From: Gammaproteobacteria bacterium
GTDB lineage: Bacteria; Pseudomonadota; Gammaproteobacteria; Burkholderiales; Burkholderiaceae_C
Direction of reading: 5' to 3'
DNA: 47,281 nucleotides
Assembly: GCA_025359085.1 (NCBI GenBank)
Contig: JANYHL010000016.1
Coordinates: 1 to 47,281 of the forward strand
Of the stretch, positions 2,643 to 41,077 are shown piece by piece. Positions within the stretch are counted from its first letter, which is position 1; every line of letters begins with the position of its first letter. The position numbers were made by a program, and so were the translations under genes. Below the pieces are notes generated by a model. The model did not search any database, was not told where the DNA came from, and worked only from the letters and a program-made list of their open reading frames with translations.

Positions 2643-2653
2643 GTTGCATGAGT

Positions 2654-2707
2654 GCTACGTTATAAATAGCATACTGCGCTTATAAAACGAGGGCTAGAGC
2701 CTGATTT
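2654..2707 (-). repeat. 54-bp dispersed repeat, intergenic copy 1
   Basis: This copy lies between the oxidoreductase and the convergent hydrolase gene. Read on the minus strand it aligns without gaps to copies at 31151, 37760 and 39496. By hand count 38 of 54 positions match the lpdA copy at 39496. Shared blocks include AAATCAGGCT at the start, TAGCCC in the left half, GCTA in the right half and GTAGC at the end. Its flank (AATTTATAAG on the minus strand) also resembles the ATTTAAGC flank of the aceF and lpdA copies. Confidence 0.7.
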
Positions 2708-2732
2708 CTTATAAATTTACAAAAAAGACAGT

Positions 2733-18937: not shown

Positions 18938-22689
<3,752 letters not shown>

Positions 22690-22724: not shown

Positions 22725-24602
22725 TTATTCAGCGCGTACCGGCACCGATTCAAGTTTGAAGCGGCGGGCCTGCAGCTCGCGGTAGCGCTGCAGTGCGCCC
22801 GGATCGGCTTTGGCCGCCTCGATGGCCTCGGTTTCCTGCACTTTGAGCTTTTCCACCAGCATGCGGTTGAGCAGATCACGCAGTTCATTGCTCGGTTCAT
22901 TGCTCTCCAGCGGGCCGGCCAGCTCGTAGCCGGTCATGAGTCGAACGGCCAGTTCTTCCTCCGGGCGCCCGCGCAGTCCTTCACGCAGCGCCACCCAGGC
23001 TTGCGGGCCGTGTTCATGCAACTGGTTTTCCAGCCACACAAACAGCCCTCCGTGCGGTTCCGGCAAGTCACACAGCAGGGTATGGTCTTCGGCCGGCAAG
23101 ACTTCCAGCGCCGCCATGTCGCCCAGCAACAGGCGGGCCGCGTAGTCAGCCCGGCTGGTGGGCCGCGCACGCCCACTTAAACTCCGACGTGTTGGAGATT
23201 TTTTAGATGAATTCTGGCTGTAGCCCTGGTATTCATTGGGTATGTAGCTATCATTATTATTTTTCAATGATTTGCGGTCGCCCTTGGCAGCAACTTGGGG
23301 ATGCCACACCTCGGTCAATTCGCGCACGGACAAACGCACCAGATCGGCAATTTCGCTCAGCAACTGCCGCTTCAAGGCGCCATCGGGCAGCAGCAACCAC
23401 AGCGGTTTGGCATTGCTGGCCAGGTGGGCGCGGCCTTCCGCGGTGTTCAGGTCGCAACCTTCACGCGCCGCGTCAATCAAAAAGCGGCTTAACGGGACGG
23501 CTTCGCTCACATAGCGGGCGAACGCTTCCTTGCCAAATTCCCGGATGAAGCTGTCGGGATCGTGCTCAGGGGGCAAGAACAGGAACTTGACGCTGCGCAC
23601 ATCGGTGGCAAAGGGCAGGGCGCCATCCAGCGCCTTGCGCGCCGCGCGCCGGCCGGCCGCGTCGCCGTCAAAGCTGAACACCACGGCATCGGTGAAACGA
23701 AACAGCTTGTGCAGATGCTCCGCCGTGCAGGCGGTGCCGAGTGTGGCCACGGCGTTGGAGAAGCCGAGTTGGGCCAGCGCCACCACATCCATGTACCCTT
23801 CGGTCACCAAGGCGTAACCCTGGTCGTGCAGCGCGTGGCGGGCTTCAAACAGGCCGTACAGTTCACGCCCCTTGCTGAAAACCGGGGTTTCCGGCGAGTT
23901 CAGGTATTTGGGTTTGTCGTCGCCCAGCACCCGCCCGCCAAAGCCAATGCATTCGCCCTTGACGTTGCGGATCGGGAACATGATCCGGTCGCGAAAACGG
24001 TCGTATCGCTTTTCTTCCCCGGAGGCCTCGTCAACATTCAGGATCACCAGACCGCTTTCGACCAGCAGCGGATCGTCATAGTTCGGGAAAACACTGGCCA
24101 GGCTGCGCCAGCCCTCGGGCGCGTAGCCCAAGCCAAACTGTTTGGCAATTTCGCCCGACAAGCCGCGGCCCTTGAGGTAGTCCACGGCCCGGGGTGAATC
24201 TTTCAACTGTTTTTTGTAGGCATCGCCCGCTTTTTCGAGCACGTCGGTCAGGGTGGTTTGCTTTTGCCGCTGCTCCAGGGCGCGCGCCCGGTCCTGCGGG
24301 CTGGCGTCGTCCTCCGGTACTTGCAGGCCATATTGCTGGGCCAGGTCTTGCACCGCCTCGACAAAGGTCATGCCCGCGTGCTCCATCAAGAAACTGAGGG
24401 CGTCGCCGTTTTTGCCGCAGCCAAAGCAGTGGTAGAACTGCTTGCTCGGGCTGACCGAGAAGGAGGGCGACTTTTCCCCATGAAACGGGCACAGGCCCAT
24501 GAAGTTGGCGCCGCCCTTTTTAAGCTGCACATAACGGCCCACGATTTCGACCACGTCAGCGCGCGAGAGCAACTCCTGAATAAAGGTCTGGGGAATGGAC
24601 AT
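22725..24602 (-). CDS. dnaG: DNA primase
   Basis: 625 aa. DnaG makes RNA primers at the replication fork. The N-terminal zinc-binding domain has Cys38, His41, Cys59 and Cys62 (LCPFHGEKSPSFSVS and FYHCFGCG). The RNA polymerase core follows (FPIRNVKGECIGFGGR, EGYMDVVAL, and the TOPRIM segment FSFDGDAAGRRAA). The C-terminal helicase-binding domain begins near residue 480. The linker between core and helicase-binding domain (about 440-475) is rich in Asn, Ser, Tyr and Lys, and its DNA is AT-rich compared with its surroundings because part of it is a copy of the 54-bp repeat. The gene stands convergent to def. Confidence 0.96.
   Translation of the reverse strand: MSIPQTFIQELLSRADVVEIVGRYVQLKKGGANFMGLCPFHGEKSPSFSVSPSKQFYHCFGCGKNGDALSFLMEHAGMTFVEAVQDLAQQYGLQVPEDDASPQDRARALEQRQKQTTLTDVLEKAGDAYKKQLKDSPRAVDYLKGRGLSGEIAKQFGLGYAPEGWRSLASVFPNYDDPLLVESGLVILNVDEASGEEKRYDRFRDRIMFPIRNVKGECIGFGGRVLGDDKPKYLNSPETPVFSKGRELYGLFEARHALHDQGYALVTEGYMDVVALAQLGFSNAVATLGTACTAEHLHKLFRFTDAVVFSFDGDAAGRRAARKALDGALPFATDVRSVKFLFLPPEHDPDSFIREFGKEAFARYVSEAVPLSRFLIDAAREGCDLNTAEGRAHLASNAKPLWLLLPDGALKRQLLSEIADLVRLSVRELTEVWHPQVAAKGDRKSLKNNNDSYIPNEYQGYSQNSSKKSPTRRSLSGRARPTSRADYAARLLLGDMAALEVLPAEDHTLLCDLPEPHGGLFVWLENQLHEHGPQAWVALREGLRGRPEEELAVRLMTGYELAGPLESNEPSNELRDLLNRMLVEKLKVQETEAIEAAKADPGALQRYRELQARRFKLESVPVRAE
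23210..23263 (+). repeat. 54-bp dispersed repeat inside dnaG linker
   Basis: GGCTGTAGCCCT (23216-23227) and GTAGCTATCA in the right half align without gaps with the intergenic copies; the last ten bases diverge. Read in the dnaG direction it encodes NNDSYIPNEYQGYSQ (about residues 447-465), a hydrophilic linker. It is read in the orientation opposite to that in aceF and lpdA. Confidence 0.6.
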
Positions 24603-31132: not shown

Positions 31133-31150
31133 GATTTCATTTCTATAATA

Positions 31151-31204
31151 AAAAAGCCCGCTAGCCCTTGTAGGAGCTTGGCAGGCAGCTATAAATTAAA
31201 TAGC
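31151..31204 (+). repeat. 54-bp dispersed repeat, intergenic copy 2
   Basis: The copy fills most of the gap between the response regulator and folD. It aligns without gaps to the copy at 2654; by hand count 31 of 54 positions agree, including CTAGCCCT, GCAG, GCTAT and the terminal TAGC. Confidence 0.65.
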
Positions 31205-31205
31205 G

Positions 31206-31832
31206 TTAAGCTTTGGCGGGAGCTTGGCCTAACGCAATTTTCAACAGGTCGGCAACGGTATTGGCGTTGAGTTTTTCCATGATGTTGGCGCGGTGCGCCT
31301 CCACCGTCTTGATGCTGATGCCCAGGTCGTCGGCAATCTGCTTGTTCAGGCGCCCGGCCACGATTCGCTCCAGCACCTGCGCTTCGCGCAGGGTCAGGCG
31401 TGCCATCAGGGCGTCCCGGCTGGCCGCGCTCTGGTGGTCGGCAAAAGCGTCCTTGGCCTGCTCCAGCATGCGCTCGACCAGGGTGACCAGTTGATCTTCC
31501 TTGAACGGCTTCTGAATAAAGTCCATCGCCCCTTTTTTCATGGTGTCGACTGCCATCGGCACGTCACCGTGGCCGGTGATGAAGACAATGGGAAGTGGCG
31601 AGCGGCTTTCCAGCAAACGGCTTTGCAGCTCCAGCCCGGTCATGCCGCCCATGCGTATGTCCACGATCAAGCAGGCCACCTCGCGAGCGTCGTAACGGCT
31701 TAAAAATGATTCGCCGGATTCAAAGCAACGCACACGGTAGTCTTTGCCTTCGAGCAGCCACTGCAGCGAGTCACGCACCGCTTCGTCGTCGTCCACCACG
31801 TAAACCGTGCCCTTTTTTGGTATCAAACTCAT
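31206..31832 (-). CDS. Two-component response regulator, FixJ/NarL type
   Basis: 208 aa. The receiver domain (residues 1-125) has the acidic triad near 14-16 (VVDDDE), phosphorylation site Asp58 (LIVDIRMGG), the Thr of FITGHGD and the Lys of IQKPF. A LuxR-type helix-turn-helix follows (about 145-200: LTLREAQVLERIVAGRLNKQ, IADDLGISIKTVEAHRANIM). It should bind DNA when phosphorylated by the kinase encoded upstream, whose stop codon overlaps its start (ATGA at 31829-31832). A likely target is the divergent aceE operon, which is inference from position only. Confidence 0.95.
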   Translation of the reverse strand: MSLIPKKGTVYVVDDDEAVRDSLQWLLEGKDYRVRCFESGESFLSRYDAREVACLIVDIRMGGMTGLELQSRLLESRSPLPIVFITGHGDVPMAVDTMKKGAMDFIQKPFKEDQLVTLVERMLEQAKDAFADHQSAASRDALMARLTLREAQVLERIVAGRLNKQIADDLGISIKTVEAHRANIMEKLNANTVADLLKIALGQAPAKA

Positions 31833-34393
31833 GTTTTACTTGGGTGTCCTTGGTTGTCTTCGGCTTGATCGGCTGGCCGATTGGCCTCCAGTGGCAGCAC
31901 TTCGATCATGGGAATCCAGAACGTAAAACAGCAGCCGGTCAGATCCGGGCCATTGTAGAGGTTCTCGGCTTTCATTCGGCCGTGGTGCGATTCCACTATC
32001 GAGCGGCACAAACTCAGGCCAATGCCCATGCCTTCCGCTTTGGTGGAATGGAAAGCTTCATACAGCCGCGCCATCACCTCCGGGGCGAGCCCCTGGCCCG
32101 AGTCCAGCACCGCGAATTCAATGACCGGTTTGCCGTCGACCTGGGTTGGCGCGACGCGCAGCATCACGCTGCGTTGCGCCGTGGCGCGCTGGGCAGCATC
32201 CACCGATTCGGCAGAATTCTTCAGCAAATTGACCAGTACCTGCTCGATCAGAATCGGGTCCACCAGCAGGACGGGCAGCCTGGGCGCCACATAGTGCGTC
32301 AGGCGCACGTTGCGCCGACGCATCTCGATTTCTACCAATTCCACCGCCTCGTCCACCATGCTCTCGATGTTCGATGGCGAGCGGTTGGGCTCGCTGCGTT
32401 TCACGAAAGAGCGAATGCGATGAATGATCTGACCGGCCCGCTGCGCCTGCTTGGCCGTTTTTTCCAGCGCGCCAAGCAACTCTTCTTCACTTATTTGCTG
32501 CGCCTTGATGCGCGACACCATGCCGTTGCAGTAGTTGTTGATGGCGGTGAGCGGCTGGTTGAGTTCATGCGCCACGCTGGAGGCCATCTCGCCCATGGTG
32601 ATCAGGCGGCTGGCGGTCTGGGCGCGCTCGATCTGGGCCGCAGATTGCTCCTCGGCGACCCGGCGCGCGGTGATGTCGGTGGCAATCACCATTTGTGCCA
32701 GGCGACCATCGACCCAGCTCAAATAGCGGGTGCGCACCTCCAGCCACTTGCCCAGGGCGTCCACGTACAGCTCGGCACTTTCAGACTCATTGTCGTTGAG
32801 CGAATCGGTCGGCAGGCCGGCCAAGGCGTCCACCTGGTCAAGCGATTCATCACTGGGGGCGGTTGCCGGCACACCGGCCTCAGCGACCAGTTGCAGGTGT
32901 CCGCCCGCTTCAGTGCCGAACCACAGTCGGTACAGTTTGTTGGCGAACAACAGCTCTTCGCTGCCCAGCGGCGCCACCGAGATCGAGGCATCCAGCGCTT
33001 CCAGCACCGTGGTAAAGCGTTCATGCGAGGCCGACAACTGATCCCGAATACGATTGGGTTCAGTGATGTCGGTCATCGAGGTCATCCAGCCGGTTTGCAT
33101 GCCATGGGCATCAATCAGTGGCGAGACATAGAGGCGCGCCTCGAACAGCGATCCGTCGCGGCGCTTGACGCGAAACTGGATGCCACTGGCCTGAATCTTG
33201 CCGGCCAGTTCTTCTTGCAGGCGTGAAGACAGGGACTCAAAATCGGCGTCGGGCCAATAAGGAAAAGGCGCGCTCCGTCCCACTAACTCGGGTTCACTCC
33301 AGCCGGTCATGCGGCAAAAAGCCGGGTTGACATAGGTGATACGGCCCTGCAGATCGAGCGCTCGCATGCCCGTCAACATGGAGTTTTCCATGGCGCGGCG
33401 AAAGCTGGTTTCGGATATCAACGCCTGCTGCGCCTGCATCCGCCGACGTGTATGACGCCAGTTGGCGATCAACATCCAGGCCGTCATCAGGCTCAGGGCG
33501 CTGACCAGCCAGAACAGACCACTGCCCACCACCCCCAGCGAGGCCTGGTACGCCTGGGCCCGGATGATGAGGCCGTTGCCCACCGGGGAGACCGGGACCT
33601 CATAAATATTGACCGGTTTGTCCCAGGGCAGCAGGCGGGTGCCGGGCTTGCGCGGCGCAATGCTGGTGCCTGCCAGCATGACGCCGTTCGCATCATGGAA
33701 CGAGACCGCATAACGGGCCGACACTTCAGTGGGCACGCCATAGCGAAATAAACCGTCGATCGAGTATTCAGCCAGCAGAACACCCAAAAAACGGGCGCGG
33801 TCATTGAACGGAATGTGCAATTGCAGCACAGCCGGCATGTTGGCACTGGCCGCCCGCATCGCGTAAATGGGTTGCTGCAATTCGCGCGCCAGGTTGTAGC
33901 TGCTAACCGATTCGCCCGGCTCCAGTGTGGCGCCTATTTTTCTAACCAGATTCGGCGCCAGACTGACGGAGCCGAAGCTGGCTTTGACGTTGCGATGGCT
34001 GTCGATCCAGCTCAGGCTTTCCAGTTCGGGATATTGGTTAACGATGGCCTCGGCCCGGCTCTGGAATTCGTCCGCATCGAGTTCGCGGTTGGAAACCTCA
34101 CGCGCGATCCGCATGAGCTGCTCCTGGCGCTCCAGCAGGCGCAGACGCATACGCTGCTGCGTGTACTCCACATCGCGATTGACGGCTTCTTGCTCCCGGT
34201 CAATTTCCTCCAGGCGCAAATACCCAAAGGCCGCCACGATCGCCGCCAGAAACAAGACCACAGCAGCCAAGGGCGCCAACACGGCAAAGCGGTCCTGGCG
34301 CTGCGGTGTCAAACGCCGCCACCAGTGTTTTAACCTTGTCAGCGGCGGTAGTTTGTCGGGAACAGAGTGCGGAATTGAAAGACTTGAAGGCAT
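31829..34393 (-). CDS. Membrane PAS-domain sensor histidine kinase
   Basis: 854 aa. Membrane helices at about 36-58 and 288-311 enclose a periplasmic sensor region of about 225 residues. In the cytoplasm follow a PAS domain (about 330-450, MENSMLTGMRALDLQGRITY), a second PAS-like domain (about 460-580), the dimerisation/phosphoacceptor domain with His609 (SSVAHELNQPLTAINNY), and a HATPase domain ending in AEGMGIGLSLCRSIVESHHG. The HELNQPLTAI H-box places it with DctB/FixL-like kinases, which often sense carboxylates or redox state. The signal is unknown. It is divergent from aceE across 210 bp of AT-rich DNA. Confidence 0.93.
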   Translation of the reverse strand: MPSSLSIPHSVPDKLPPLTRLKHWWRRLTPQRQDRFAVLAPLAAVVLFLAAIVAAFGYLRLEEIDREQEAVNRDVEYTQQRMRLRLLERQEQLMRIAREVSNRELDADEFQSRAEAIVNQYPELESLSWIDSHRNVKASFGSVSLAPNLVRKIGATLEPGESVSSYNLARELQQPIYAMRAASANMPAVLQLHIPFNDRARFLGVLLAEYSIDGLFRYGVPTEVSARYAVSFHDANGVMLAGTSIAPRKPGTRLLPWDKPVNIYEVPVSPVGNGLIIRAQAYQASLGVVGSGLFWLVSALSLMTAWMLIANWRHTRRRMQAQQALISETSFRRAMENSMLTGMRALDLQGRITYVNPAFCRMTGWSEPELVGRSAPFPYWPDADFESLSSRLQEELAGKIQASGIQFRVKRRDGSLFEARLYVSPLIDAHGMQTGWMTSMTDITEPNRIRDQLSASHERFTTVLEALDASISVAPLGSEELLFANKLYRLWFGTEAGGHLQLVAEAGVPATAPSDESLDQVDALAGLPTDSLNDNESESAELYVDALGKWLEVRTRYLSWVDGRLAQMVIATDITARRVAEEQSAAQIERAQTASRLITMGEMASSVAHELNQPLTAINNYCNGMVSRIKAQQISEEELLGALEKTAKQAQRAGQIIHRIRSFVKRSEPNRSPSNIESMVDEAVELVEIEMRRRNVRLTHYVAPRLPVLLVDPILIEQVLVNLLKNSAESVDAAQRATAQRSVMLRVAPTQVDGKPVIEFAVLDSGQGLAPEVMARLYEAFHSTKAEGMGIGLSLCRSIVESHHGRMKAENLYNGPDLTGCCFTFWIPMIEVLPLEANRPADQAEDNQGHPSKT

Positions 34394-34603
34394 AGTGCGC
34401 AGTGTAGAGGCCTGCCTGTGAGCGAGCGCTGGTTTGCAGGATGCCTGGATGCAATGAAATTGGTTTGTTGGTGTTTGTATTTCTTAATATGAAATCGAGT
34501 AGCATAATTTGAAATTTTTATAAAAACATGGCAAAATAAAAAACACTGGCGTTTCTTGAAAATCCCAATAACATCAAAATGCCAAACCACCCAGGAGATA
34601 AAA
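34394..34603. promoter_or_regulatory. AT-rich divergent control region of the kinase gene and aceE
   Basis: This 210-bp gap is much richer in A and T than its surroundings, especially 34460-34560, as expected for a regulated promoter region. TATAAA (34519-34524) and TTAATA are possible -10 elements for aceE. I find no clear inverted repeat that I could name as an operator. Confidence 0.45.
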
Positions 34604-37315
34604 ATGTCACTAACCCCCGATGACTTGACGGGCGCGAGTGCGCCTGACGTCGACAGCCAGGAAACCCGTGAATGGATGGACGCGCTATCGGCCGTTATTC
34701 AGCGCGAAGGGCCTGAGCGCGCCCATTTTTTGCTCGAGCAATTGCTTGAGCATGCCCGCCAAAACAGTATCGACATGCCGTTTTCAGCCAACACCGGCTA
34801 CGTCAACAGCATTGAACCGGATCAGGAGGAGCGTTGCCCCGGCAACATCGAGATTGAAGAACGCCTGCGCGCCTATATGCGCTGGAACGCGATGGCGATG
34901 GTGGTCAAGGCCAACCGCCACCACCCGGTGGATGGTGGCGATCTGGGCGGGCACATCGGCTCGTTTGCCTCACTGGCCCATATGTTTGGCGCGGGTTTTA
35001 ACCATTTTTGGCATGCCGAGAGCGAAAACCACGGCGGTGACTGCCTCTATATCCAAGGCCATGTGGCGCCCGGTGTCTATGCGCGTGCCTACCTGGAGGG
35101 CCGCCTGACGGAAGAGCAGCTGCTCAATTTCCGCCAGGAAACCGGTGGCAAGGGCTTGTCCAGCTACCCGCACCCCAAGCTGATGCCCGAGTTCTGGCAG
35201 TTCCCCACGGTGTCCATGGGCCTCGGGCCCTTGATGGCGATTTACCAGGCGCGCTTTTTGAAATACCTGCACGCGCGTGGCATCGCCAACACCGAGAACC
35301 GCAAGGTATGGGTGTTTTGTGGCGATGGTGAAATGGATGAGGTCGAATCCTTGGGGGCGATTGGCCTGGCCGCGCGTGAAAAACTCGATAACCTGGTGTT
35401 TGTCATCAACTGCAACCTGCAGCGCCTGGACGGCCCGGTGCGCGGCAACGGCAAAATCGTGCAGGAGCTGGAAAGCACTTTCCGCGGCGCGGGCTGGAAC
35501 GTGCTCAAGCTGCTGTGGGGCAGCAACTGGGACCCGCTGCTGGCGCGCGACACCGACGGCGCCTTGCGCAAGCTCATGATGGACACGCTCGATGGCGACT
35601 ACCAGTCCTTCAAGGCCAACGACGGCGCTTATGTGCGCAAGCATTTCTTTGGCCGCGACCCGCAAACGCTGGCGATGGTGGCCAAGATGAGTGATGACGA
35701 CATCTGGAGCTTGCGCCGCGGTGGCCATGACCCGCAAAAAGTCTATGCGGCTTATCACAAGGCGGTGAATCACAAGGGGCAGCCGAGCGTGCTTCTGATC
35801 AAGACCATCAAGGGTTTTGGCATGGGCAAGAGCGGCGAAGGCAAAAACAATGTGCACCAGACCAAGAAGCTGACCGATGACGACATCAAGCTCTTTCGCG
35901 ACCGCTTCAACATCCCGATTCCTGACAGTCAGATCGCCGATATTCCGTTTTACAAACCGGCGGATGACACACCCGAGATGCGTTACCTGCACGCGCGGCG
36001 CAAGGCTTTGGGGGGTTACCTGCCGCATCGGCGCACCCAAGCCGACGAGCACTTCACGGTGCCCGCGCTGGAGATTTTCAAGTCAGTGATCGAGCCCACC
36101 GCCGAAGGCCGCGAAATCTCCACCACGCAAGCCTATGTGCGCTTTCTGAGCCAGTTGCTGCGCGACCAGGCGCTGGGTCCACGGGTGGTGCCGATTCTGG
36201 TCGATGAAGGCCGCACCTTTGGCATGGAAGGCCTGTTCCGCCAGATTGGCATATACAACCCGGAAGGCCAGAAATACACCCCGGTCGATAAAGACCAGGT
36301 CATGTACTACAAGGAAGACACCAAGGGCCAGATGCTGCAAGAAGGCATCAATGAAGCCGGCGGCATGGCGAGCTGGATTGCCGCCGCCACCAGCTACAGC
36401 ACCAGCAACCGCATCATGGTGCCGTTTTACGTGTACTACTCGATGTTTGGCTTTCAGCGCATTGGCGACCTGGCCTGGGCCGCGGGCGACATGCAGGCAC
36501 GCGGCTTCCTGCTGGGCGGCACGTCAGGGCGCACCACGCTCAACGGCGAAGGCCTGCAGCACGAAGACGGCCACAGCCATATTCTGGCCGGCACCATTCC
36601 GAACTGCATCAGCTATGACCCGACCTTTGCGCATGAGGTGGGCGTGATCCTGCATCACGGCTTGAAGCGCATGGTCGAGAAACAAGACAACGTCTATTAC
36701 TACATCACGCTGCTCAATGAAAACTACCCGATGCCGGGGCTGACGGCGGGCACCGAGGCGCAGATCATCAAGGGCATGTACCTGTGCAAAGCGGGTGCAA
36801 GGGATGCCAAGCAGCCCACGGTGCAATTGCTGGGCTCGGGCAGCATCCTGCGTGAATCGATTGCCGCCCAAGAGCTGCTGGCAAAAGACTGGGGCATCAG
36901 CGCCAATGTCTGGAGTTGCCCCAGCTTCAATGAGTTGGCGCGTGAGGGCCAAGCCTGTGAGCGCCACAACCTGTTGAACCCGGTCGCCGTGCCCAGCTTG
37001 TCGTTTGTCGCGCAACAGCTCGAAAAGCACGCTGGTCCGGTGGTGGCCGCCACCGACTACATGAAGGCCTATGCCGAGCAGATCCGCGCCTTTATCCCCA
37101 AGGGTCGCACTTACAAAGTACTGGGCACCGACGGTTTTGGCCGCAGCGACTTCCGCTCCAAGTTGCGTGAGCATTTTGAGATCAACCGCCATTTCATTGT
37201 GGTGGCCGCGTTGAAGGCGCTGAGCGAAGAGGGCACGCTGCCGGTGGCCAAAGTGCTGGAAGCGATTGCCAAGTACGGCATCCAGACCGACAAGGTCAAT
37301 CCGCTGTACGCTTGA
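34604..37315 (+). CDS. aceE: Pyruvate dehydrogenase E1 component, homodimeric type
   Basis: 903 aa. E1 decarboxylates pyruvate with thiamine diphosphate and transfers the acetyl group to the lipoyl domains of E2. The TPP motif is GDGEMDEVESLGAI (Gly240-Asp241-Gly242) with NCNLQRLDGPVRGNGK about 30 residues on. HHPVDGGDLGGHIGSFASL and the C-terminal LGTDGFGRSDFR are highly conserved. ATG 34604 has AGGAG seven bases upstream; a longer frame to 34556 lacks both family similarity and a ribosome site. It heads aceE-aceF-lpdA, with a hairpin-forming repeat before aceF. Confidence 0.97.
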   Translation: MSLTPDDLTGASAPDVDSQETREWMDALSAVIQREGPERAHFLLEQLLEHARQNSIDMPFSANTGYVNSIEPDQEERCPGNIEIEERLRAYMRWNAMAMVVKANRHHPVDGGDLGGHIGSFASLAHMFGAGFNHFWHAESENHGGDCLYIQGHVAPGVYARAYLEGRLTEEQLLNFRQETGGKGLSSYPHPKLMPEFWQFPTVSMGLGPLMAIYQARFLKYLHARGIANTENRKVWVFCGDGEMDEVESLGAIGLAAREKLDNLVFVINCNLQRLDGPVRGNGKIVQELESTFRGAGWNVLKLLWGSNWDPLLARDTDGALRKLMMDTLDGDYQSFKANDGAYVRKHFFGRDPQTLAMVAKMSDDDIWSLRRGGHDPQKVYAAYHKAVNHKGQPSVLLIKTIKGFGMGKSGEGKNNVHQTKKLTDDDIKLFRDRFNIPIPDSQIADIPFYKPADDTPEMRYLHARRKALGGYLPHRRTQADEHFTVPALEIFKSVIEPTAEGREISTTQAYVRFLSQLLRDQALGPRVVPILVDEGRTFGMEGLFRQIGIYNPEGQKYTPVDKDQVMYYKEDTKGQMLQEGINEAGGMASWIAAATSYSTSNRIMVPFYVYYSMFGFQRIGDLAWAAGDMQARGFLLGGTSGRTTLNGEGLQHEDGHSHILAGTIPNCISYDPTFAHEVGVILHHGLKRMVEKQDNVYYYITLLNENYPMPGLTAGTEAQIIKGMYLCKAGARDAKQPTVQLLGSGSILRESIAAQELLAKDWGISANVWSCPSFNELAREGQACERHNLLNPVAVPSLSFVAQQLEKHAGPVVAATDYMKAYAEQIRAFIPKGRTYKVLGTDGFGRSDFRSKLREHFEINRHFIVVAALKALSEEGTLPVAKVLEAIAKYGIQTDKVNPLYA

Positions 37316-37325
37316 AACCCTCATC

Positions 37326-37376
37326 CCGTTCGGGCCGAGCTGGTCGAAACCCCAGGACCAAGCTCAGGGCGAACGG
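37326..37376. repeat. PELVE-type palindromic repeat between aceE and aceF
   Basis: CCGTTCGGGCCGAGCTGGTC on the left is nearly complementary to GACCAAGCTCAGGGCGAACGG on the right around a short centre, so the RNA would form a long hairpin in the aceE-aceF gap. Related copies lie at 38083 and 21271. Confidence 0.85.
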
Positions 37377-37454
37377 ATATCAGATAAACCGTGTTGGGGC
37401 AGCCTGTAGCGAAGCAAAGTGCTGCCCTCAACTGAACAGGCATGGAGAGACAAC

Positions 37455-39206
37455 ATGGCATTAGTAGAAGTAAAAGTCCCGGACATCGGTGATTTTGATG
37501 AAGTTTCAGTGATTGAAATACTGGTCAAACCGGGCGACACCGTCAAGGCTGAACAAAGCTTGATTACCGTCGAGTCCGACAAGGCGTCGATGGAAATCCC
37601 GTCGTCGGCGGCGGGGGTGGTCAAGGAACTCAAGGTCGCTTTGGGCGACAAGGTCAAGCAAGGCTCATTGCTGTTGTTGCTGGAGGTGGCGGATGCCGCC
37701 GCTGCAGACCTGGCAGGGTCGGCGGCAACGGCCCCAGCGAGCGCTCAGGAATTTAAGCAAAATGAGGCTTTAGCCCCCGTCCCTTCTACGCAAGCCGCTA
37801 TTAATTCAGAAGCACCCAGCCGGGGGGCAGTCGAGGTGCGCGTGCCTGATATTGGTGACTTCAAGGATGTGACGGTGATTGAAGTCATGGTCACGGTGGG
37901 CGACGCGGTCCGCCTGGAGCAAAGTCTGGTCACGGTGGAGTCGGACAAGGCGTCGATGGAAATCCCGTCCAGCGCGGCGGGCGTGATCAAAGAGCTCAAG
38001 GTCAAGCTCGGCGACAAAGTCAATATTGGCGACTTGCTGGCGATTCTGGAAGGTGTCGCTGTGGCCGATGCGGCACCAACAGCCGTTCGCCCTGAGCTTG
38101 TCGAAGGGCTAGCACAGGCTTCGACCCTTCGTCAGGCTCAGGACAGGCCAAGCTCAGCCCGAACGGAACCGAGTGCAGCAGCTAGCGGAACGTCAATGGC
38201 CGCCGTTGTCCAGGCGCTTCCCGCCCACAACCCCAGCGCGCCCACTGCCGGCCTGCCCCATGCCTCGCCCTCGGTGCGCAAGTTTGCCCGCGAGCTGGGC
38301 GTGCCCCTGGAGGAAGTCAAAGGCAGCGGCTTGAAAGGCCGCATCACCGACCACGACGTGCAAACCTTTACCCGCTCGGTGATGAGCGGCGCGGTTCAAA
38401 CGCTGGCCGCGCAGGCGCAACCCAAAACGGCTGCCGCCGCATCCGCCAATGACGGAGCCGGTCTGGGCTTGATTGCGTGGCCGAAGGTGGACTTCACCAA
38501 GTTTGGTCCGGTCGAGCGCAAGGAGATGTCGCGCATCAAGAAAATCAGCGGTGCCAACCTGTTGCGCAACGCGATCATGATTCCGGCGGTCACCAACCAT
38601 GACGACTGTGACATCACCGAGCTGGAAGCTTTTCGGGTCTCGACCAACAAGGAAAACGAAAAGTCAGGTGTCAAGGTCACCATGCTAGCCTTCCTGATCA
38701 AAGCCTGCGTGGCCGCGCTCAAGAAATACCCCGAGTTCAACAGCTCGCTCGACGCTGAGAGTGACGGTTCGGCCCTGATCTACAAGCAGTATTACCACAT
38801 CGGTTTTGCCGCCGACACGCCCAACGGCCTGATGGTGCCGGTGATCAAGGACGCGGACAAAAAAGGCATCATGCAAATCTCGGTGGAGATGGGCGAGCTG
38901 GCCCAAAAAGCGCGCGATGGCAAGTTGAGCCCGTCCGAGATGAGCGGCGCCAGCTTCACCATCAGCAGCCTGGGCGGGATTGGCGGACGTTACTTCACGC
39001 CCATCATCAATGCGCCTGAAGTATCAATTCTGGGGGTGTGTCGTTCCACCATGGAGCCGGTGTGGGACGGCAAGACCTTTCAGCCGCGCCTGATGTTGCC
39101 GCTCTCCTTGACCTGGGACCACCGCGTGATTGACGGTGCCGCTGCGGCCCGCTTCAACGTTTATCTGGGCCAAATCCTCGGCGACTTCCGCCGGGCATTG
39201 CTGTAA
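37455..39206 (+). CDS. aceF: Pyruvate dehydrogenase E2, dihydrolipoamide acetyltransferase
   Basis: 583 aa. E2 is the core of the complex and passes acetyl groups to CoA. Two lipoyl domains (about 2-78 and 125-200) each contain VESDKASMEIPSS, the Lys being lipoylated. A peripheral-subunit binding domain follows (SPSVRKFARELGVPLEEVKG, about 270-305), then the catalytic domain with DHRVIDGAAAARF at the end. The first linker contains a 54-bp repeat copy (residues 102-120) and the second a PELVE-type repeat (about 210-238, VRPELVEGLAQAS and LRQAQDRPSSART). The ATG at 37455 has GGAGAGA upstream; homologues begin MALVEVKVPDIGDF. Confidence 0.97.
   Translation: MALVEVKVPDIGDFDEVSVIEILVKPGDTVKAEQSLITVESDKASMEIPSSAAGVVKELKVALGDKVKQGSLLLLLEVADAAAADLAGSAATAPASAQEFKQNEALAPVPSTQAAINSEAPSRGAVEVRVPDIGDFKDVTVIEVMVTVGDAVRLEQSLVTVESDKASMEIPSSAAGVIKELKVKLGDKVNIGDLLAILEGVAVADAAPTAVRPELVEGLAQASTLRQAQDRPSSARTEPSAAASGTSMAAVVQALPAHNPSAPTAGLPHASPSVRKFARELGVPLEEVKGSGLKGRITDHDVQTFTRSVMSGAVQTLAAQAQPKTAAAASANDGAGLGLIAWPKVDFTKFGPVERKEMSRIKKISGANLLRNAIMIPAVTNHDDCDITELEAFRVSTNKENEKSGVKVTMLAFLIKACVAALKKYPEFNSSLDAESDGSALIYKQYYHIGFAADTPNGLMVPVIKDADKKGIMQISVEMGELAQKARDGKLSPSEMSGASFTISSLGGIGGRYFTPIINAPEVSILGVCRSTMEPVWDGKTFQPRLMLPLSLTWDHRVIDGAAAARFNVYLGQILGDFRRALL
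37760..37813 (+). repeat. 54-bp dispersed repeat in the first aceF linker
   Basis: Aligned without gaps, about 40 of 54 bases equal the lpdA copy, with 12 further matching bases of upstream flank. It is read as NEALAPVPSTQAAINSEA between the two lipoyl domains. Confidence 0.75.
38083..38166. repeat. PELVE-type palindromic repeat in the second aceF linker
   Basis: It starts CCGTTCGCCCTGAGCTTGTC and ends AAGCTCAGCCCGAACGG, an imperfect inverted pair about 84 bp in total, with internal partial repeats (CTTCGACCCTTCG, CAGGCTCAGGACAGG). The frame stays open through it, adding about 28 residues to the linker before the E3-binding domain. Confidence 0.85.
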
Positions 39207-39229
39207 CCCCAACCCGTCAGGAACCACCA

Positions 39230-41077
39230 ATGGCACTTATCGACATCAAAGTCCCCAACATTGGCGACTTCGCCGAAGTCACCGTCATCGAGCTGCTGGT
39301 CAAGCCCGGCGACACCGTGCGGGCCGAGCAAAGCCTGATCACCGTGGAGTCCGACAAGGCCTCCATGGAAATTCCCTGCAGCCACGCCGGCGTAGTGAAA
39401 GAACTCAAGATTGCACTGGGCGACAAGGTCTCCGAAGGCTCGGTGCTGCTGGTGCTGGATGCGGCCAACCCTTTAGATACACCAGAATTTAAGCAAAATC
39501 AGGCTGTAGCGCCCGTCCCATCTGCGCAAGGCGCTACACAAAACGTAGCGCCCGCAGCCACTGCCGTCGCCCCGCCCGCCAGCTACGCCGGCAGCGTCGA
39601 CATGGATTGCGATTTGTTGGTGCTCGGTTCCGGGCCTGGTGGCTATTCCGCGGCCTTCCGCGCCGCAGATTTGGGCCTCAAGGTGGTTCTGGTCGAGCGC
39701 TACGCCCAACTCGGTGGGGTCTGCCTGAACGTCGGTTGCATTCCCAGCAAGGCCTTGCTGCACGTTGCCGCCGTCATGGACGAAGTGAGCCACATGGCGG
39801 CGATGGGGGTGGAGTTTGGCGCACCCAAGGTCAATCTGAATACCTTGCGCGGCCACAAAGACAAGGTCGTCAACAAACTCACGGGGGGTCTGGCCGCCAT
39901 GGCCAAGATGCGCAAGGTGACGGTGGTGCGCGGTTATGGCGCTTTTGTCGGCGCCCATCATGTGCAGGTTGAAGAAACCACCGGCACGTCCCAAGAGAAG
40001 ACCGGCAAGACCCAAACCATTGCCTTCAAGAAGGCCATCATCGCCGCCGGCAGCCAAGCGGTGCGCCTGCCGTTCATGCCGGACGACCCGCGCGTGGTGG
40101 ACAGCACCGGCGCCCTGGCTTTGAAAGAAGTGCCCAAACGCATGTTGATTCTGGGCGGCGGCATCATCGGCCTGGAAATGGGCACGGTCTACAGCACGCT
40201 GGGGGCGCGCCTGGACGTGGTGGAGATGCTGGACGGTCTGATGCAGGGCGCCGACCGCGACCTGGTCAAAATCTGGCAGAAGATGAACGCGCCACGCTTC
40301 GATAACATCATGCTCAACACCAAGACGGTGGGCGCCCGCGCCACGCCGGCAGGCATCGAGGTCACGTTTGCCGCAGCGCAGGAGGGCGGTACCGCCCCGG
40401 CGCCGCAGACCTACGACCTGGTGTTGCAAGCGGTAGGCCGCACGCCCAACGGCAAGAAGATCGCCGCCGACAAGGCTGGAGTTTCTGTGACCGACCGCGG
40501 CTTCATCAACGTCGACATCCAGATGCGCACCAACGTGCCGCACATCTTCGCCATCGGCGACATCGTCGGTCAGCCCATGCTGGCGCACAAGGCGGTGCAC
40601 GAGGCGCATGTGGCCGCTGAAGTGATTGCTGGTGAACTGCAAGGCATCAAGGAACTGGCCAGCGCCGCGTTCAACGCCCGCGTCATCCCGAGCGTCGCCT
40701 ACACCGACCCGGAAATCGCATGGGTCGGCCTCACTGAAGACCAGGCCAAAGCCCAAGGCATCAAGGTCAAGAAGGGCCTGTTCCCCTGGACTGCCTTGGG
40801 CCGTGCCATTGCCAATGGCCGCGACGAAGGGGTCACCAAGCTGCTGTTTGATGATTCACCCGAGGCGCACGGCCACGGCAAGATACTGGGCGGCGGCATG
40901 GTCGGCACCCATGCGGGCGACATGATTGGTGAGATTGCGCTGGCGATCGAGATGGGTGCGGATGCCATCGACATCGGTAAAACGATTCACCCGCACCCCA
41001 CGCTCGGGGAGAGCATCGGCATGGCGGCGGAAGTGGCGCACGGCAGTTGCACGGATTTGCCGCCAGCACGCAAGTAG
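39230..41077 (+). CDS. lpdA: Dihydrolipoamide dehydrogenase (E3) with N-terminal lipoyl domain
   Basis: 615 aa, longer than the usual 470 because of an N-terminal lipoyl domain (about 1-80, VESDKASMEIPCS with the lipoyl Lys). E3 re-oxidises dihydrolipoamide with FAD and NAD+. The FAD-binding GSGPGGYSAAFRAADLG, the redox disulfide GGVCLNVGC (Cys165, Cys170), the NAD-binding GGGIIGLEMG and the C-terminal IHPHPTLGE with the catalytic His-Glu pair are all present. The linker after the lipoyl domain (residues 89-107) is a 54-bp repeat copy, nearly the same as in aceF. Last gene of the operon; a terminator follows. Confidence 0.97.
   Translation: MALIDIKVPNIGDFAEVTVIELLVKPGDTVRAEQSLITVESDKASMEIPCSHAGVVKELKIALGDKVSEGSVLLVLDAANPLDTPEFKQNQAVAPVPSAQGATQNVAPAATAVAPPASYAGSVDMDCDLLVLGSGPGGYSAAFRAADLGLKVVLVERYAQLGGVCLNVGCIPSKALLHVAAVMDEVSHMAAMGVEFGAPKVNLNTLRGHKDKVVNKLTGGLAAMAKMRKVTVVRGYGAFVGAHHVQVEETTGTSQEKTGKTQTIAFKKAIIAAGSQAVRLPFMPDDPRVVDSTGALALKEVPKRMLILGGGIIGLEMGTVYSTLGARLDVVEMLDGLMQGADRDLVKIWQKMNAPRFDNIMLNTKTVGARATPAGIEVTFAAAQEGGTAPAPQTYDLVLQAVGRTPNGKKIAADKAGVSVTDRGFINVDIQMRTNVPHIFAIGDIVGQPMLAHKAVHEAHVAAEVIAGELQGIKELASAAFNARVIPSVAYTDPEIAWVGLTEDQAKAQGIKVKKGLFPWTALGRAIANGRDEGVTKLLFDDSPEAHGHGKILGGGMVGTHAGDMIGEIALAIEMGADAIDIGKTIHPHPTLGESIGMAAEVAHGSCTDLPPARK
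39496..39549 (+). repeat. 54-bp dispersed repeat in the lpdA linker
   Basis: It starts AAATCAGGCTGTAGC and ends AACGTAGC. It matches the intergenic copy at 2654 at 38 of 54 positions and the aceF copy at about 40, without gaps. Read as NQAVAPVPSAQGATQNVA, in the same frame as in aceF. Confidence 0.8.

Follow-up and report, generated by a model that had tools for sequence, protein, structure and literature searches.

How does one sequence come to stand between genes, inside protein linkers and antisense to a coding region of the same contig? This question is raised by a 47,281-nucleotide stretch of a Burkholderiaceae_C genome (contig JANYHL010000016.1 of assembly GCA_025359085.1; here called the window), in which a sequence-only reading had noticed a dispersed element of 54 bp and proposed that it is a miniature mobile or gene-converting element. 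Our analysis argues strongly for a DNA recognition motif, about 67 bp long and spread over the whole genome, that very probably accumulates by substitution in place and not by insertion or recent copying. As for what drives the accumulation, we prefer a motif resembling a DNA uptake sequence which would build up under biased uptake and recombination, a reading to which we give a probability of a little under one half.

The window was scanned with a position weight matrix (PWM) of 67 columns built on 30 genomic copies, with a cut-off of at least 10 bits, and the copies found were also scored with a second model, R1. G-numbers denote sampled genomes, L-numbers DNA stretches and C-numbers contigs; the source genome, host of the window, comprises 3.158 Mb in 149 contigs. 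Six copies were found in the window:

2651-2717, minus strand: intergenic copy, PWM 68.1 bits, R1 46.5 bits, also in G046 and G087
20812-20878, plus strand: weak copy in ligA, PWM 20.6 bits, R1 18.4 bits over 20834-20876
23200-23266, plus strand: copy antisense to dnaG, PWM 33.3 bits, R1 18.6 bits, also in G046 and G087
31141-31207, plus strand: degenerate intergenic copy over a conserved terminator-like sequence, PWM 39.2 bits, R1 22.5 bits
37750-37816, plus strand: copy in pdhB (E2), PWM 70.8 bits, R1 54 bits, read in frame as EFKQNEALAPVPSTQAAINSEA
39486-39552, plus strand: copy in lpd (dihydrolipoyl dehydrogenase), PWM 65.2 bits, R1 51.2 bits, read as EFKQNQAVAPVPSAQGATQNVA

All six have counterparts at the corresponding positions in G046 and G087, the nearest two among the genomes compared, including the weak ligA copy, whose orthologues score 21.0 and 21.8 bits, respectively. 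The pdhB copy encodes residues 110-133, the linker after the first lipoyl domain (lipoyl stretch 17-87) of a protein assigned to E2 by NCBIfam TIGR01348. Similarly, the lpd copy (residues 85-108; TIGR01350) lies in the linker between Biotin_lipoyl (5-76) and the FAD-binding Pyr_redox_2 domain (128-459). The dnaG copy covers residues 445-468, downstream of the DnaB_bind domain (372-425), and the ligA copy residues 265-288, within the adenylation domain (80-337). The copy at 31151 is a mixed case, since the terminator-like stretch that it overlaps (an A-run, GCCCGC ... GGC[AG]GGC) occurs without the motif, at similar spacing, in G003 and G006. Rfam covariance models gave no match within the window at gathering scores.

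The PWM scan thus recovered the copies where the sequence-only reading had placed them, constant in length, in both orientations and in coding as well as non-coding DNA, and the identities counted there by hand were exact (38/54 for 2654 on the minus strand and 39496, 31/54 for 2654 on the minus strand and 31151, 40/54 for 37760 and 39496). Its suggested further copies in dnaG and, weakly, in ligA hold, whereas smc contains none of the six. The length of 54 bp had to be given up: the information profile exceeds background between about -1 and +68 and is at background level outside, so that the gapless unit measures about 67-70 bp. The 30 copies have AATTTnnAnnAAATnGGGCTCTAGCCCCCGTCGAATATGCGCAAGCAGCTATnAAAAnAGTAGCAAn as their majority consensus, with a GC content of 42%.

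The motif is abundant far beyond the window. A scan of the genome against control sequence, which the sequence-only reading had proposed, placed the copies far above chance: in a density sample of 400 kb (20 stretches from four contigs of the source genome) 65 copies reached at least 10 bits, against none in the reversed and none in Markov-1 sequence. Extrapolation gives about 510 copies per genome, or about one per 6 kb. A 30-bp core pattern matched the source genome 163 times, against once for its reversed form, and a sequence-only model scored 150 of 1310 candidates, all 150 at E <= 2.1e-8. The places of the core pattern, the model scoring and the genus, G010, family and collection listings given below are lower bounds or partial counts.

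Genic copies leave the proteins at nearly their native length. TilS was found at 52 places in 51 of the 60 genus genomes, and 30 of these loci were analysed. Between the conserved RY and [AG][QH]H.DDQ lie 21 residues in 28 of them and 18 and 19 in the other two. The motif reaches at least 8 bits in 14 loci, all with 21 residues, along a gradient from 9 to 84.5 bits; the 16 loci without it comprise 14 with 21 residues and the two with 18 and 19. The TilS of G088 has nearly the same peptide written in synonymous, non-motif codons. Seven proteins hand-picked among the 33 genic copies were compared with solved homologues from the PDB. Over the copy, TrpF (38.7 bits) and its Thermotoga homologue 1lbm align gaplessly; nor is there a gap inside the PrmB copy (53.4 bits) against Thermotoga 1sg9, where a gap of one residue follows just after the copy. 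An SDR gains 4 residues within the copy (5va8), FolC 4 (1w78) and TilS 6 (1ni5), and the copy region of IleRS is 9 residues shorter (8c9e). All seven differences fell between -9 and +8 residues and never at the +22 expected from insertion of the motif. The spacing at the LolB, M16 and 31141 loci is similar in motif-free genomes.

A comparison of orthologous loci for empty sites, also proposed with the first description, gave no clean one; a single intergenic locus is ambiguous and is discussed below. Among the 107 source-genome copies of at least 20 bits, two pairs are identical at 63/67 positions and have alike flanks, i.e. they are segmental duplications. The closest remaining pair reaches 55/67, while in column-shuffled sets the maximum averaged 50.9 and never exceeded 54. 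The miniature mobile element is therefore not supported, given near-native protein lengths, no clean empty site at the loci compared and no near-identical dispersed copies outside the two duplications. The alternative label of a gene-converting element stands only in the sense of biased recombination, as uptake-sequence drive would be.

The placement of the copies was studied in 447 kb of the source genome with a simple home-made codon-usage gene caller, on which the gene counts, frames and first-half bias rest (367 genes, 84% coding). Among 71 copies, 33 lie inside genes, 33 between genes and 5 overlap gene ends; of the 38 non-genic copies, 10 have a same-strand gene end within their first 22 nt. 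Eighteen genic copies are read in sense as ...ALAPVEYAQAAIKNIA and 11 in antisense as ...AIKNIAAYALSTGATAQF, with 4 in other frames, so that 29 of 33 use the two stop-free frames. Likewise, 29 of 33 fall in the first half of the gene (p 5e-6). PdhB, Lpd and DnaG carry the copy in linkers, TilS, TrpF, PrmB and an SDR in mid-enzyme. Antisense copies also encode N-terminal stretches of LolB, an M16-family protein and a protein without Pfam match (L165, 6412-6924, 10552-11004 and 14292-15719), and these stretches read as putative signal peptides or lipobox. At the Lpd linker (gene at 39230-41077 of the window; 30 orthologous loci, L291-L320) motif-rich genomes have the motif peptide and motif-poor ones other sequence. 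Peptides resembling other repeats were seen there as well, TVRAEPVEAPSTGSG in G047, ASPSTGSGQAEAR-like in G041 and SPSPQPSPLLGEGSK-like in G007 and G085; since it carries several repeat-like peptides, this linker may be a tolerant place for repeat families.

The copies are spaced more evenly than expected. In the 400 kb from four contigs, the coefficient of variation of the intervals was 0.695, against 1.02 +/- 0.115 for gene-aware placements, none of 5000 of which was as low; among uniform placements 0.4% were as low. Only 2 of 59 intervals were below 1 kb, where 11.6 would be expected. Neighbouring copies point the same way in 30 of 58 pairs, a mixed orientation, and no replication-strand bias was evident in the source-genome contigs; G010, whose listing of places is partial, was given no part in strand claims. 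Positions 1-60000 of source contig C87 (L169-L171) have a low density, 3 copies of at least 14 bits in 60 kb, and are possibly recently acquired DNA.

Across taxa the presence of the motif is patchy. Counts in the genus genomes range from 0 to 297, and 32 genomes of other families of the order gave 0 or 1 match each. In 150 genomes of the GTDB family, searched with a second pattern, 40 had at least 20 matches, 2 had 9-15 and 108 had 8 or fewer, a level which the reversed control also reached in most of those 108 genomes and which is therefore noise. Rich and poor members occur within one genus (76 and 3 matches in g47, 5 and 115 in g53). Among the matches listed (80 of at least 119 stretches), the titles name Rhodoferax, Polaromonas, Acidovorax, Ottowia, Extensimonas, Giesbergeria, Curvibacter, Diaphorobacter, Simplicispira and Comamonas, the rest being uncultured or of higher rank. 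The source genome itself may belong to Rhodoferax or a near relative. A further scan took in the 55 of the 119 stretches whose listed title names a genus, and in 7 of the 10 genera they contained extra copies beyond the seed pattern, the reversed controls giving none. High or low copy number changes 6 times on a tree of 38 REP-associated tyrosine transposase (RAYT) proteins (3 of 41 loci were excluded, two cut by contig ends and one a different RAYT), and none of 500 shuffles was as low. The copy-number state is clustered on the tree, yet it has switched several times. Among the places listed, dialects were distinguished by CCCCGT (source genome and G032), GCGCTTRT (G010) and CCGGCGT...TTGCC (G122); contig C1 of G122 has a distinct, fairly uniform dialect, GGCTGTAGCCGGCGTATTTATTGCCTAAGCAGCTAT. 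None of 50,697 phage records matched, in a search which used a single consensus and was not sensitive.

Mutual information was calculated for 88 source copies (the 107 without the two loci with segmental duplicates and without copies below 35 bits) and for 69 G010 cores. Correlated columns were mostly adjacent (AA/TT, CC/TT, AT/TA), with a few distant pairs too. RNAalifold on the 30 source copies gave 7 pairs, none of them compensatory, and the two source copies tried folded no better than shuffles. The source dialect reads as a duplex site, while the G010 dialect has complementary arms. Between orthologous copies at 11 loci, with up to three relatives each, columns above 1.2 bits mismatched in 33/496 cases, those of 0.6-1.2 bits in 159/775, those of 0.25-0.6 bits in 159/496 and those below 0.25 bits in 62/310. 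Conserved columns thus change least, with the degree of conservation inflated by the selection of these loci for motif score in the compared genomes. The motif holds 54.9 bits, whereas 13.6 would be needed to locate some 510 sites, an excess that would suit drive more than a plain binding site.

The motif shares with uptake sequences (PMC7811141, PMC3630211, PMC1939737, PMC2346458) its substitution in place, its occurrence on both strands, a preference for certain frames, an even spacing, dialects and a patchy presence, and it is for this reason that we propose the uptake reading. Uptake sequences are described as arising by point mutation and not as inserted elements (PMC7811141), as having dialects (PMC3630211) and as preferring certain frames within genes (PMC2346458). 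A putative DNA receptor on the surface or pilus would prefer fragments bearing the motif, the fragments taken up would recombine at their own loci, the biased recombination would favour mutations that improve the local match, and coding constraint would halt the improvement. Preferential uptake, the receptor and the drive are parts of this scheme that we infer. The motif resembles the uptake signal sequence (USS) of Haemophilus and the DNA uptake sequence (DUS) of Neisseria in its hundreds of copies in both orientations, genic with frame preference as well as intergenic, in its evolution in place, its fairly even distribution, its lineage dialects and its occurrence in only part of a family; a core with AT-rich flanks is also found in the USS. 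It differs from both in length and information (about 67 bp and about 55 bits, against USS and DUS cores of 9-11 bp, or about 31 bp with flanks in Haemophilus) and in belonging to another bacterial order. Strong sequence preference in DNA uptake is described for species of two bacterial families in PMC7811141. Natural transformation was reported for Acidovorax temperans, A. facilis and Verminephrobacter eiseniae, members of the same NCBI family (PMC4212676), and these reports make the uptake reading testable. In the tests described there, no transformation was seen from one Acidovorax species to another. For V. eiseniae the authors suggested sequence specificity, with no signal named in the part of PMC4212676 available to us. 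The ComEC family (PF03772) was found in 56 of the 60 genus genomes, the source genome among them. In its fullest form, which we put forward tentatively, the motif would be the first uptake sequence outside Pasteurellaceae and Neisseriaceae and the longest known (about 67 bp and about 55 bits, with AT blocks flanking its core), recognised by a putative receptor in Comamonadaceae-type bacteria. Biased uptake would then have rewritten about 500 loci per genome, including the cores of enzymes such as TrpF and TilS as well as the N-terminal part of LolB, and species dialects would limit gene exchange.

Several observations weigh against the uptake reading or the in-place origin on which it builds. 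PF03772 was not found in 4 of the 60 genomes, three of which are motif-rich (G046, G023 and G043), although drafts can miss genes, and all nine zero-motif genus genomes have it; the presence of ComEC therefore does not follow that of the motif. Known uptake sequences are much shorter and carry far less information, and that of Haemophilus, at about one per 1 kb, is denser than the motif at about one copy per 6 kb (PMC7811141). Two hand-picked cores of the G010 dialect fold better than shuffles (z -2.5 and -3.0), the hairpin following TAG; this hairpin lowered our estimate for the uptake reading from one half to its present value and took slightly from its fullest form as well. Three identical 36-bp cores occur among the 26 G122 places listed. 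Four plasmid records match the motif consensus, and the three plasmid stretches scanned, of 32, 50 and 50 kb, contain 8, 2 and 1 copies, respectively. The first of these, Rhodoferax antarcticus 'plasmid unnamed1' (NZ_CP019241; L398), also carries the housekeeping gene pabB, and this linear record may be a chromosomal piece. The motif-rich genomes G005 and G011 have no motif in TilS. DapE has 8 additional residues within its copy and 4 more just before it (against 4ppz). At one intergenic locus the motif-free G006 is 44 nt shorter and the motif-free G003 5 nt shorter, and insertion at that locus is ambiguous. Finally, pairwise identities of the copies are overdispersed (standard deviation 4.90, against 3.67 in shuffled sets), and because of this wider spread the copies are near to, but not exactly, independent draws.

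The rival that survives best, although we consider it unlikely, is a chromosome-organising or regulatory DNA-binding site, used by a nucleoid protein, by gyrase-like wrapping or by a segregation or repair factor. Such a site would likewise be read as a duplex, evolve in place on both strands with even spacing, and drift with the specificity of its protein. The even spacing with few close pairs, the neighbour-base dependencies, the mixed orientation and the protection of conserved columns in orthologous copies are all in agreement with it. The bimodal presence within the family (40/150 rich against 108/150 at noise level), seen even between genomes of a single genus, would be odd for a core chromosome site, and the information is far above the amount needed to find the sites.

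The next rival, rather improbable, is a REP-like family mobilised or templated by a single RAYT, an HUH enzyme that would cut single-stranded DNA of the element and incorporate it elsewhere. One Y1 transposase was found in the source genome. NCBIfam assigns it to the REP-associated tyrosine transposases at 84.7 bits (cutoff 80), E. coli TnpA_REP (4ER8, E 0.0024) is the one PDB entry that it matched, and Pfam gave no C-terminal HTH domain in it. The gene is placed as follows:

source contig C107, L031 1462-2166: RAYT gene, single-copy and common across the genus (loci L112-L151)

Since copies flank this sole Y1 gene on both sides in the source genome and in G046, mobilisation by RAYT was our first answer; it was mostly dropped because copies are frequent at gene ends in general and because the TilS and Lpd loci are shared in a similar way. 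A copy of at least 6 bits lies over the RAYT gene end in 13 of 41 loci, one of them from the motif-poor G019. However, overlap with the end of a same-strand gene is seen in 10 of the 38 non-genic copies in any case, and the TilS and Lpd loci are similarly common to motif-rich genomes, so that the flanking of RAYT loses most of its weight. The motif is like a REPtron in being a short dispersed family near a single-copy RAYT, with copies often over gene ends and, in G010, with a TAG-footed hairpin, TAG followed by complementary arms that fold well in the two cores. The source dialect is unlike one: it has neither compensatory pairs nor covariation mainly between distant columns, its two copies tried fold no better than shuffles, none of the 107 copies are near-identical and dispersed, and no 22-residue insertion was seen in the seven proteins tested. 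RAYT is also present in motif-free genomes, and together with the high base rate at gene ends this keeps it as a low-ranking rival, raised slightly by the G010 hairpin.

The RAYT locus has features of its own. Its layout is TIRtron-like: of 41 loci, 15 have terminal repeats of the GGGGTCAG type on the upstream side, 29 on the downstream side and 12 on both (downstream only in the source genome). These repeats resemble the GGGGWSAS terminal inverted repeats of TIRYT genes (PMC3733652). The terminal repeat GGGGTCAGAnnCCAATT is not dispersed, with 1 match in 447 kb. Most TIRYT genes were placed in a subclass that is reported to lack REP-like neighbours (PMC6006769). A second dispersed repeat, TTCGACAGGCTCAGGGCGAACGG-like and partly in inverted pairs, has many matches in G081 and was placed at:

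L154, 11830-11945 and 15300-15450: second repeat
L150, upstream of RAYT: second repeat
G046 contig C44, near 1400: second repeat

Ancient inserted repeats, now decaying and kept in frame, are very improbable. The occurrence of copies at orthologous places, the length difference at the intergenic locus and the small length gains of DapE, TilS, the SDR and FolC against their PDB homologues would fit them, but no insertion in TrpF or PrmB is seen even when the comparison reaches out to Thermotoga, and the conservation is sharply position-specific, with the conserved columns protected (in copies selected by score). Least probable of all, and lowered a little further by the G010 hairpin, is a Betaproteobacterial repeat element (BRE) or a palindromic coding element of the Rickettsia type: BRE occurs in Comamonadaceae, like the motif partly within genes (PMC3110155), and Rickettsia elements stand in frame (PMC3733652), but the full-length Bordetella BRE copies have 75-91 bp, average 69% GC and are partly tandem (PMC3110155), against about 67 bp, 42% GC and 2 of 59 intervals below 1 kb for the motif (a comparison by description, not by sequence alignment), while the Rickettsia elements are described as inserted and the genic motif copies tested were not, keeping near-native protein length.

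The sequence-only reading knew no published name for the element; the literature searched gave no settled one, and no paper matched the motif core strings in a literature text search. Parts of the motif have probably been seen before. An automated survey (PMC5217627) lists GCTTAT(N)5AAGCG in Acidovorax ebreus (114 copies, 94% intergenic) and ATAGCT(N)22CAAAAG in Polaromonas naphthalenivorans (125 copies, 81% intergenic), with no function given for either in the part available, and names Rhodoferax ferrireducens as richest in significant motif pairs (140). The former matches the motif centre in the GCGCTTAT dialects, and ATAGCT is the reverse complement of the AGCTAT of the motif. Unlike the motif, these were listed as separate short pairs and, in that part of the survey, never joined into one. 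In our reading the spaced pairs are fragments of the 67-bp motif, which may account for these function-less fragments.

The motif is a concrete candidate for the signal behind transformation selectivity in Acidovorax and Verminephrobacter. Whatever its role, a 67-bp word lies over coding sequence in 33 of 71 copies and added no length of its own in the proteins tested, and a constraint at the level of DNA therefore shapes conserved enzymes in these bacteria.

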